From NCBI RefSeq assembly GCF_026241205.1, contig NZ_JAPFQM010000001.1, forward strand, positions 682,001-746,000: a DNA stretch of 64,000 nucleotides. Reading direction: 5' to 3'. Each line of letters starts with the position of its first letter. Positions within the stretch are counted from its first letter, which is position 1. Origin of the DNA: Thermomicrobium sp. 4228-Ro (GTDB lineage Bacteria; Chloroflexota; Chloroflexia; Thermomicrobiales; Thermomicrobiaceae). A program made the translations under genes and the position numbers. The notes beneath the pieces are model-generated. The model worked only from the letters and a program-made list of their open reading frames with translations. It ran no database searches and was not told the DNA's origin. Shown here one piece after another: positions 2 through 39,557 of the stretch.

Positions 2-391
2 GCGACGCGTGCCGCGCTGGAGGAACTCGCCGCACTGCGCGGCGTGCCGACCGTCGATGATTTCAGTCGAGCGCTGGGGGTGACCGACCGGGAAGCACTC
101 GCCCAGCTCGTCCAGCTGCGCCAGGCTCAGGCAGCGACGGTGGACGAGCTCCGGCCGAGGATCGGCCAGCTGGCCGACCGACTGGTCCGGCGCTTTACCC
201 TCCCCGGCGGCAAAGTCCTGCCGGACTTCATGGTCCCGCCGGACGACCTGCCAGCTATCCTGACAGCCGTCGAGACACTCCAAGCGATCGCGCGCGAGGC
301 GCTGATCGATGTCACGCTGGCTCGCCTCGCGCTCGACGGTGTGGAGGCTGCCAAACGGTCCCCCTACCCCGTCAGCCAACCAGTGGGGTAA
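2..391 (+). CDS. Hypothetical protein, 5'-truncated by the window edge
   Basis: An open frame runs from base 2 with no start codon until a GTG at 44, and the codons before that GTG read as ordinary helical protein (ATRAALEELAALRG). The gene therefore most likely begins upstream of the window. About 129 residues are visible: an Ala/Leu/Arg-rich helical stretch, a short segment with several Pro (LPGGKVLPDFMVPPDDLP), another helix, and a TAA stop. I see no motif that assigns a function. Its last 20 bases overlap the convergent 3' end of the CcdA-like gene. Confidence 0.5.
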   Translation, partial: ATRAALEELAALRGVPTVDDFSRALGVTDREALAQLVQLRQAQAATVDELRPRIGQLADRLVRRFTLPGGKVLPDFMVPPDDLPAILTAVETLQAIAREALIDVTLARLALDGVEAAKRSPYPVSQPVG

Positions 392-1217
392 CCGGGAACA
401 GGCGCGCGAACGGCGCCGGCCAGAGCGCCGTCGCGAAGTAGTAGGCAGCGAGCGCGACGAGAAGGACGAACGAAGCTGACCGCACGAAGCCGAAGGCCGA
501 ACGGGCACGCGCCCGAAGTTCGGCACCCGTTCGCTCAGTCAGCGACGAGAACGCGAACAGCCCGCTGACGAAGCTCGCGGCTGCAAGGACGAAACCGATC
601 GGCGCAAAGATCGGACTGTATGTCATGCTGTGCATGGCCAGACCGGCCAAGATCGGCCCGGTTCAACCGAATCCAGCTAGGACAAAACCGGTACCGGCTG
701 CCACCGAACGGAGGAAGGACGGCTGTGCTCCGGTACGCAAGAGCCGCCGCCCCGTACGGCTGACGACCGTCCCCGGTAGACTCCACCAGCCGCGCTGCGC
801 CGCCAGCCCGGCAAGCACGAGAGCGACGGTAAGCCGCAGCATTCGCCCGACTGCACTCGGAAACGTCACACCACCGATCAGAGGCGCAAGCCCCGATGCG
901 ATCGCCACACCGAGCAGGAGGAAAACGCTACAGGCACCGAGCCCCAGACCGACAAGTCGGCGATGTTTCCCGTTCCTGTCACGGCCGGCACTGCGCGCCA
1001 GGATCGCCAGGAACAGTGGAAACGAGCAGGGGGAGAGCAGGCTGGCCAGCCCGGCGAGCAGCGCCAAGGCGACAAGCGAGAGTGCATCGATGGGCGGCAA
1101 CCGAAAGCGGGGATAGTGCACGTATGCCAGCCAGTAAGCGAGCAAGAGTACCGCGAATACGGATGTGAGAGCGAGTACGGTCGACACCCTGGGATGCCGT
1201 CGTAGCTGGTAACGCAT
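372..1217 (-). CDS. CcdA-like thiol-disulfide membrane protein, candidate selenoprotein (in-frame TGA)
   Basis: The ATG at 1217 follows GGAGGTG, and the frame runs 281 codons if the TGA at 665-663 (codon 185) is read through. The product has about six to seven membrane segments. The first CcdA cysteine is present as SPCSFP (Cys64). The second conserved intramembrane cysteine of CcdA proteins, just before GP(I/V)L, is exactly where the TGA falls: GFG-TGA-TGPILAG. The 96 codons after TGA continue in frame with transmembrane character and end at TGA 374-372. CcdA proteins pass electrons across the membrane between thiols. Sec at the missing Cys would give a C/U pair, which is my inference. A simple nonsense mutation is the alternative. 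The gene is divergent from an OsmC-family gene with a CsoR-type operator between them. Confidence 0.65.
635..665 (-). promoter_or_regulatory. Candidate bacterial SECIS after the ccdA-like TGA
   Basis: Immediately 3' of the TGA (665-663) the transcript can form a UGGCC/GGCCA stem (649-645 with 639-635) closed by the loop GGUCU at 644-640. The loop starts 18 nt after TGA. The E. coli fdhF SECIS apical loop is AGGUCU, so size, spacing and loop bases agree with the known element. A competing, TGA-proximal hairpin (662-655 with 648-642) is also possible. Confidence 0.5.
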
Positions 1218-1348: not shown

Positions 1349-1367
1349 TATACCCCCACGGGGTATA
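1349..1367. promoter_or_regulatory. CsoR/CstR-family operator-like palindrome
   Basis: TATACCCCCACGGGGTATA is a perfect 8-3-8 inverted repeat. GC-rich sites of the form TACCCC...GGGGTA are the known operators of CsoR-family repressors (copper-sensing CsoR, persulfide-sensing CstR). It ends 18 bases before the OsmC-family ATG and lies in the 168-bp divergent gap to the CcdA-like gene, so it could control one or both. The link to sulfur chemistry (OsmC, CcdA) makes a CstR-like sensor more plausible than a copper sensor; this is inference, and no csoR gene is in the window. Confidence 0.65.
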
Positions 1368-1385: not shown

Positions 1386-1901
1386 ATGGATCTACGGACT
1401 CTCCAACGCCCGCTCAAGCAGCGGTACCGGGAAGAGCCGGAAGCCGCCCAGATCACGCTGCGCGCGGTGGCCAGCCAGTTCGAGAGCCCGCTGCGCTGCG
1501 TGATCGAAACCACCGGCGGCACGATCGTCAGCGAAGCGCATCCAGGAGTCGGTGGCCCCGGCACGGCCAGCTGCTCCGGCGATCTGCTCCTGGCCGCGCT
1601 GGCTGCCTGCGCCCAGATCACCTGCCAGATGGTGGCGACCGCCCTCGGGATTCCCTATCGCCGCATCAGCGTGGCGGCCGAGGGCGATCTCGATCTGCTC
1701 GGGACGCTCGGCGTCTCCCGCGAGGTACCGGTCGGTTTCCAGGCGATCCGGCTCCTGGTCGATATCGATGCACCGGAGGCGACGCCGGAGCAGCTGGCCA
1801 ACCTGCGGGAAAAGACCGAGCAGTTCTGCGTGATCTACCAGACGCTCCGCCAGCCGCCCGCCGTGACCGTCCAGTGGTCGAACGCCAGCTCTCAGCCGTA
1901 A
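1386..1901 (+). CDS. OsmC family thiol protein
   Basis: The 171-residue product matches the OsmC/Ohr fold. A central helix carries a cysteine (LLLAALAACAQITC), and a second conserved cysteine lies near the C terminus (EQFCVIYQ), the pair used in OsmC peroxidatic chemistry. The ATG at 1386 follows AGGAAGGG, and I prefer it to the in-frame starts further upstream. The operator at 1349-1367 sits where it would block transcription. OsmC relatives reduce organic hydroperoxides, and some occur in sulfur-trafficking operons. The exact substrate cannot be told from sequence. The 3' end overlaps the convergent RraA-like gene by 10 bases. Confidence 0.85.
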   Translation: MDLRTLQRPLKQRYREEPEAAQITLRAVASQFESPLRCVIETTGGTIVSEAHPGVGGPGTASCSGDLLLAALAACAQITCQMVATALGIPYRRISVAAEGDLDLLGTLGVSREVPVGFQAIRLLVDIDAPEATPEQLANLREKTEQFCVIYQTLRQPPAVTVQWSNASSQP

Positions 1902-38894: not shown

Positions 38895-39557
38895 TCAACG
38901 CTCGTCTCGCCCTGCTCGCGCTCGTTGCTCGATGACGGCACGCAGCCAGGCACGGTACTGCTCTTCCGTCCGCGCCCCGCTCAAGGCAGACGTCCCATCG
39001 GCGACCAGGGTCGGTACTGCTGCAACACCGAGTCGGCGTGCCCGCTCGAGGTCAGCCTGAACGGCAGCCAGGACTTCCCCGCTACGGTAGGCCTTTTCCC
39101 AGAGCGAGACATCCAGCCCCACCGCAGCAGCACAGTCAGCCAGGACAGCATCATCGGCGATATTGCGGCACTCGACGAGATGCGCGTACTGGATGCGGTC
39201 GAAGAGATCCCAGTGCGCCTGTTGGCCGCCGATCGACTCTGCCGCTTTGCAGGCGCGGAGCCCTGGCATCGAATACGGATAGTCGAATGGCCGTGCCGCC
39301 ATGAGGTCGGGCCGGAACCGCGGCACGTCGTCGTACCGGTTGGCCAAACGCCAGTGCTCGAGAATCTCAGCTTTCCCGCGTTCCTTGGAACCGAAGATCA
39401 CCGCAATGGCCTCGGGTGTCGGCGCGAGCGCGAAACAGCGGTGCACTAGGTGAACTTCCGGGAACTCGGTGAGAACCCGGCGCAGCCGTGGCGACGCCAC
39501 GGCACACCAGGCTCACAACACATCGTGAAAGAATTCGAGGGTGACCATACTCGTCAT
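38895..39557 (-). CDS. DsbA/FrnE-like oxidoreductase, candidate selenoprotein (UxxC)
   Basis: The ATG at 39557 overlaps the doxX stop as ATGA. The frame codes 220 residues if the TGA at 39515-39513 (codon 15) is read through. The N terminus then reads TLEFFHDVL-TGA-AWC-AVASPRLRRVL, in which TGA replaces the first Cys of the DsbA/FrnE CxxC motif. The following 205 codons are intact, with the helical insertion (LAPTPEAIAVIFG ... AAESIGGQ), the cis-Pro segment GVAAVPTLVADG, and a stop just before the LLM pseudogene. UxxC replaces CxxC in several known bacterial selenoprotein families. Without Sec readthrough only a 14-residue peptide, or an N-terminally truncated protein from GTG 39500, would be made. 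Confidence 0.72.
39485..39515 (-). promoter_or_regulatory. Candidate bacterial SECIS after the dsbA-like TGA
   Basis: The mRNA 3' of TGA forms a perfect 8-bp stem (39503-39496 with 39492-39485) with the loop GUC, or a 7-bp stem with loop CGUCG. The loop begins 16-17 nt after TGA and contains GU. Known bacterial SECIS elements place a GU-bearing loop about 16-37 nt after UGA, so spacing and loop both fit. Confidence 0.6.

Follow-up and report, generated by a model that had tools for sequence, protein, structure and literature searches.

A CcdA-like membrane protein of Thermomicrobium with a predicted selenocysteine in place of the second redox cysteine

Genes and features at the locus

The window, the 64,000-nt stretch of Thermomicrobium sp. 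4228-Ro DNA that was analysed, carries a gene for a CcdA-like membrane protein at positions 372..1217 on the minus strand (1217 -> 372), comprising 281 codons and a stop if one in-frame TGA is read through. An earlier interpretation, made without database searches and referred to here as the sequence-only reading, had given the same coordinates, which stood, while the strand had to be corrected to minus because plus-strand translation of this interval contains several stops. Read from 1217 on the minus strand, codon 185 is TGA (663..665, or 665-663 in the direction of reading), located in GFG-TGA-TGPILAG as had been described, and the 96 codons past it are open before a TGA stop. The first redox cysteine, that of the SPC motif, which had been assigned to Cys64, was found at 1026..1028 on the minus strand (1028-1026). 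It is the proposed redox partner of the residue at codon 185, where the TGA, a proposed selenocysteine codon, aligns with the second redox cysteine of CcdA. A SECIS-like hairpin with a 5-bp stem (UGGCC/GGCCA) and the loop GGUCU follows at 635..649 on the minus strand, in the register of the E. coli fdhF element. Below, G-numbers denote genomes and L-numbers loci compared with the window; G000 is the window's own genome, G014 is HRbin28 (HR28) and G015 is HRbin27 (HR27).

The neighbouring gene, arranged divergently, is an OsmC-like gene at 1386..1901 on the plus strand (Pfam OsmC, E 1e-18; ATG at 1386 in a listed ORF that opens at 1272), and the same arrangement is seen in HR28. Between the two genes lies a perfect palindrome, ATACCCC-CAC-GGGGTAT (1350..1366, no strand), which by its resemblance to such sites we take to be a putative CsoR/CstR-type operator. 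The palindrome, in the form ATACCCC-N3-GGGGTAT, is found between the genes in the window, HR27 and HR28, and a similar one stands just upstream of csoR in G002 and G006. A search for CsoR relatives in 15 sequences (the window and fourteen loci) found them only in L045 and L046. The predicted CsoR-type operator, common to the CcdA-like and OsmC genes, suggests a role in copper or persulfide/peroxide stress.

A second Sec-type gene, encoding a DsbA-like protein (Pfam DSBA, E 2e-10), is located at 38895-39548 on the minus strand (39548 -> 38895), with U12 in FFHDVL-U-AWC and its TGA at 39515. The sequence-only reading had cited such a gene as sharing the features of the first; the gene does exist and has a very strong hairpin directly after its TGA (z -6.2), but the loop differs. 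Scans for the loop motif and for base composition missed this gene, which was found from the reading frames. In-frame UGAs were also met in other genomes. A related genus (G010-G013; L095-L098), where the searches gave no Sec-CcdA, has HMA proteins with the UGA in GMGFTUS[SV]CAA, and one locus of G074 (L100) encodes two HMA proteins with an in-frame UGA each (GMVUQLC and GMHUTGC).

Homology to CcdA and the residue at codon 185

Pfam searches with the window protein returned no family up to E 1, and we call the protein CcdA-like rather than CcdA because a CcdA/DsbD match is missing from that search. The Cys-containing orthologue of G369 matched PF02683 over the cut-off (E 5e-7). When the Sec family was compared with a CcdA profile using hhalign, the probability was 98.6 with E 6.3e-16 over 233 columns, and U185 fell on the cysteine of PCVGPIL in CcdA. 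In a joint alignment of 33 proteins the columns G175, C/U185, G187, P188 and I189 were invariant and Cys64 was conserved in at least 90% of the aligned sequences, such that both redox motifs of CcdA/DsbD, SPCxxPL with Cys64 and GPIL with C/U185, are present. The profile comparison, along with the invariant site and GPI in the alignment, indicates that the residue replaced is the second redox cysteine of CcdA.

In a sequence-based comparison with the PDB, the Sec family taken by itself (an alignment of 17 rows, three of which have Cys) reached CcdA 5vkv only at E 0.32. A first structure model (pLDDT 56.4) was too weak and was set aside. The AlphaFold model obtained with the 33-row alignment, canonical CcdA rows included, had a pLDDT of 81.7 and a pTM of 0.73. 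Its top match among solved structures in Foldseek was CcdA 5vkv (probability 1.00, E 0.019, TM 0.48), and with VIA 5vkv was again on top (Z 8.7, 194 residues, rmsd 4.1), followed by other rows at Z 8.1 and 8.0.

Searches for homologues gave matches in 10 of 21 genomes of the family, in 39 of 158 of the class at E 1e-3 (many of these being ordinary CcdA), in 7 of 400 of a phylum sample at E 1e-20 and in 7 of 396 of the class to which the Cys carrier G369 belongs, also at E 1e-20. Twenty-one genomes, the window's own included, had a readable homologue. The alignment at site 185, proposed in the sequence-only reading as a test for Cys or Sec, showed TGA in 17 (G000, G014, G015, G016, G019, G002, G003, G005, G006, G121, G124, G151, G153, G771, G688, G645 and G803), Cys in three (G369, G715 and G793) and Arg (CGA) in a degenerate copy in G018. 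The readable homologues span two classes, and the UGA state is found across both. Trp homologues, which the same reading had considered as a sign of decay from TGG, numbered zero among the 21. All 16 of the canonical CcdA proteins aligned, taken from order relatives, carry Cys in WSPCxGPIL, in agreement with the earlier statement that CcdA needs a cysteine at this second position; Sec and Cys thus exchange at site 185, with Cys in the three genomes named and in all of the canonical proteins. Plasmid searches gave no matches for the Sec forms, and for the Cys form the matches were limited to short CcdA stretches in 14 records.

These counts bear on the possibility that the UGA is read as Trp or another residue, or that two proteins are split at this codon. 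The open frame itself would allow it and nothing further speaks for it, while the lack of Trp homologues, the Cys in all three of the intact sense homologues and in the 16 canonical CcdA proteins, and the presence of tRNA-Sec and SelB (see below) leave it a vanishingly small chance. Readthrough as Trp was rejected on the absence of a Trp homologue among the 21 readable ones.

The genus has six copies of the gene, those of the window and HR28 being intact and the other four (L012, L014, L017 and L019) decayed or degenerate. The G015 copy contains an additional TAG and shifts frame late in the gene, the G016 and G019 copies are frameshifted pseudogenes, and the frame of the G018 copy, although open, is heavily altered and has the CGA at the site; some of the decayed copies are from draft or metagenome assemblies, in which sequence errors are possible. 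Judged by these four copies, the gene seems to be dispensable in part of the genus. The decay in G015, G016, G018 and G019 could also be taken to mean that the TGA arose by nonsense mutation in a gene being lost. However, 17 genomes from two classes have the TGA at this very codon, with Cys elsewhere, the protein is conserved past the TGA to the gene end, and codons are conserved at the hairpin. Since the TGA is common to two classes and alternates with Cys, nonsense decay was rejected as a general explanation, and we regard it as extremely improbable.

The hairpin downstream of the UGA and the selenocysteine machinery

In the RNA the hairpin reads UGGCC-GGUCU-GGCCA (649-635), with the stem starting 13 nt and the loop 18 nt past the UGA. 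The earlier placement of a 5-bp hairpin 18 nt after the TGA is therefore right for the loop GGUCU, while the stem itself starts at 13 nt. The likeness to fdhF that had been pointed out was borne out by the E. coli RefSeq record, which has GGU CUG at codons +7/+8 exactly as in the window. The window contains a single TGGCCGGTCTGGCC string, for which shuffling gives an expectation of 0.00. For nearly all UGA forms, the codons past the UGA follow ACN GGN CCN ATY NTG GCC GGT YTG GYC. The 5-bp core stem is paired in 16 of the 17 UGA forms and the loop is GGUCU in 14; G688 has GGUUU, G803 has AGUCU together with a compensating change of the closing pair from C-G to U-A, and in the G019 pseudogene both stem and loop are broken.

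A codon test and a pair count were carried out on 15 of the 17 UGA sequences, with the pseudogenes G016 and G019 left out. At codons +5..+9, the same codon was used in 377 of 440 same-residue pairs, ranking first of 194 five-codon windows. Outside these codons the count was 2212/6899, or 2574/7985 with thin columns kept (about 0.32), and the best five-codon window reached 0.54. For the control, Cys-type CcdA at the same place, the same codon was used in 264 of 536 pairs (0.49) versus 5754 of 13889 elsewhere. Base-pair covariation was thin, with one compensatory change that was matched by 47 of 500 shuffles, and was rejected as proof because variation is too low. Cys homologues can form 2-5 of the 5 hairpin pairs if G-U is allowed; because they also pair in part, the signal lies in the codons and the loop and not in pairing alone.

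Single-sequence folding of the window RNA favoured another hairpin (ACCGGGCC...GGCCGGU). Folding energy does not discriminate, the E. coli fdhF element itself having a z of only -1.14, and was rejected as proof of a SECIS for this reason. Rfam gave no match on the window at gathering scores. The SECIS folding that had been suggested as a check gave, for the single sequence, a lowest-energy fold that differs from the hairpin; in the comparison among genomes, codons are conserved at the hairpin. A SECIS-type hairpin is supported, as a prediction, by the comparison among genomes and not by single-sequence energy.

The Sec machinery, which was to be looked for according to the sequence-only reading, is present in G000, with selA (548 bits), selB (359 bits) and selD (357 bits) each over the cut-off and a tRNA-Sec (73 bits, anticodon tca). 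All 13 UGA carriers examined for it (the 17 less G771, G688, G645 and G803) had a selA match over the cut-off, as did 45 of 59 genomes overall; as this includes most relatives, selA is needed but not specific. The selD gene of G000 (L037, C1:1677655-1678590) has an in-frame TGA in ASCAG-U-AGKL, and SelD of this genome itself looks like a selenoprotein from its sequence.

From the sequence comparisons, the gene very probably encodes a CcdA-like selenoprotein in which the second redox cysteine is a selenocysteine at UGA 185. Sec would be inserted at this codon by SelA, SelB, SelD and tRNA-Sec via the in-frame fdhF-type hairpin. Genes of this type are likely annotated as truncated proteins or pseudogenes.

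In CcdA and DsbD, electrons cross the membrane via a buried cysteine pair, which in CcdA takes them from thioredoxin and passes them outward, by a chemistry that is hard to follow. By homology to CcdA, Cys64 and Sec185 would face each other inside the membrane and form a selenenyl-sulfide, and reducing equivalents would move from cytoplasmic thioredoxin to Cys64/Sec185 and on to the outer face. Evolution would then have placed Sec inside a membrane redox relay, and such a natural Sec version would offer selenium, with its lower pKa, 77Se NMR and mass signature, as a handle on exactly this buried redox position.

Neighbouring genes and comparison with known systems

A MerR-type regulator precedes the gene in G002, G005 and G006 (recognised by eye, in G006 by HMM). 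For all four genomes of genus g3 (G002, G003, G005 and G006), a Sec-HMA gene is located directly downstream of Sec-CcdA (L044 13919-14293, L045 1761-2123, L046 11027-11392 and L050 494-865), encoding a short protein that has an HMA domain, a hydrophobic stretch at the N terminus and an in-frame UGA in GMxU(R/Q)SCAGAVA. In G369, G715 and G793, a gene for a Cys-type HMA protein lies just ahead of the Cys form, and the Sec protein of G803 carries a fused HMA domain. In the remaining loci read, no gene next to the CcdA-like gene was recognised as HMA, a search of the window, L042 and L043 found no HMA motif, and G000 had no Sec-HMA match at E 1e-9.

In G121 and G369, the CcdA-like gene has a MerR-type gene before it and a DUF7482 protein after it (L086 6867-7421 and L089 7944-8537). 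By eye, a MerR-like frame precedes the gene in G124 and a DUF7482-like frame follows it in G151 and G153 (L087 1854-2501 and L088 590-1267). The DUF7482 protein is a possible exported partner. In G151, the Sec-CcdA/DUF7482 pair is followed by genes for an ArsR-type regulator and for an aquaporin-like channel (L087 444-1841).

Because HMA and MerR-type neighbours recur in the relatives, we hypothesized that the outside client binds soft metals, being an HMA protein or a metal-thiolate, and we rate this as close to an even call. The relay might keep such ligands reduced or help to move soft metals, e.g. Cu(I) and Hg(II). The OsmC neighbour or the DsbA-like second Sec protein is a possible partner in the window's genome. 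The frequent proximity of toxic-metal genes in the relatives points to selenium-based metal handling, and the association with HMA selenoproteins suggests that this group uses selenium to handle soft metals beyond the cytoplasm. Somewhat more tentatively, we propose a soft-metal/persulfide module new to the literature, with a Cys/Sec relay and a membrane-anchored Sec-HMA (UxxC) under MerR-/CsoR-type control, in which two selenocysteines on two proteins might hand electrons or metal across the membrane.

The HMA and MerR-type neighbours, as well as the HMA fusion in G803, would also fit a Sec-containing soft-metal transporter (like MerT or the actinomycete CcdA-domain "mercury transporters"), in which Cys64 and Sec185 would not relay electrons but would, as metal ligands, receive Hg(II) or Cu(I) from the HMA protein and move it across the membrane. 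MerA-like ORFs are found a few genes upstream of the Cys form in G793, and CcdA-domain proteins appear as mercury transporters in the excerpted Table 4 of PMC12195606, both in keeping with transport. However, MerA is not consistently present: of the 31 genomes tested, 12 have a match over the cut-off, and among the 15 UGA carriers that are not called pseudogenes the number is 4 (G000, G014, G015 and G803). In addition, the Cys/Sec pair falls exactly on the CcdA redox pair, and the window's genus has the OsmC neighbour with no HMA motif nearby. We consider such a transporter rather unlikely. Mercury resistance as the definite function was rejected on the same inconsistent presence of merA.

The homology to CcdA and the existence of Cys forms could be accounted for by an ordinary CcdA that serves cytochrome c maturation or the reduction of thioredoxin-like proteins, with Sec as a rate-enhancing substitute for Cys. 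This is improbable given that ResA/TlpA or cytochrome c maturation genes were not recognised beside the gene in the loci read, mostly by eye, that the Sec and Cys forms have HMA/MerR neighbours in common, and that canonical CcdA forms a group apart in the 33-protein alignment (WSPC versus GFGU/GMGC).

By keyword, no description of a Sec-CcdA was found in the open-access literature, including the available portions of PMC13188914, PMC9312934, PMC12013277, PMC12195606, PMC2628731, PMC2398784 and PMC1088965. The sequence-only reading had stated that a Sec-containing CcdA would be unusual and may be new. As far as the excerpts of these papers extend, a 2026 review leaves CcdA unmentioned and names DsbD once, for the fusion-like TsoB (PMC13188914), and CcdA/DsbD are absent from a 2022 review (PMC9312934), the deep-Sep paper (PMC12013277) and two older metagenome surveys (PMC2398784, PMC1088965). 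From the same excerpts, selenoproteins in mercury transport and in HMA modules are already known (PMC13188914, PMC2398784), and CcdA-domain mercury transporters of actinomycetes are listed (PMC12195606 Table 4). Since a Sec-CcdA is missing from the literature searched while these other proteins are known, the Sec-CcdA-like proteins would form a new family of selenoproteins in the CcdA superfamily.

The predicted SECIS and the E. coli fdhF element both have a loop with GGUCU and GGU CUG at +7/+8, whereas the conserved stem here is shorter (5 bp) and the outer pairs vary. TsoB (NF045694, rhodanese/DsbD fusion-like) is also a selenoprotein with a DsbD-like membrane part, but has two Sec in a UxxxxU motif according to the excerpt of PMC13188914, compared with one U in the window protein. 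With the TsoB model, the HR28 protein scored 10.9 bits (E 0.089; cut-off 805) and the window protein had no match; nor did Pfam find a rhodanese match in the latter. NF045683 (MerT/CopZ fusion-like) and NF041115 (UxxU) are HMA-type soft-metal modules with Sec, and of the four Sec-HMA neighbours all match NF041115 and two match NF045683, the displayed member being below the cut-offs. The membrane partner here is CcdA-like and not MerT as in NF045683, and compared with both models the neighbouring HMA protein is UxxC with an N-terminal hydrophobic stretch. The actinomycete "mercury transporters" likewise include a CcdA-type membrane protein listed with mercury resistance, though without Sec, in the excerpted text and Table 4 of PMC12195606, whereas the linkage to merA is inconsistent here. 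CcdA itself (PF02683 DsbD_TM / PF13386 DsbD_2; 5vkv) has in common with the Sec-CcdA-like protein the two intramembrane redox positions (SPCxxPL and xxGPIL), a similar length and perhaps, going by the model, the fold; it differs in that the Sec-CcdA-like protein has a predicted Sec as the second Cys, GFGU/GMGC where CcdA has WSPC, an extra N-terminal helix and, in the loci of relatives, HMA/MerR neighbours.
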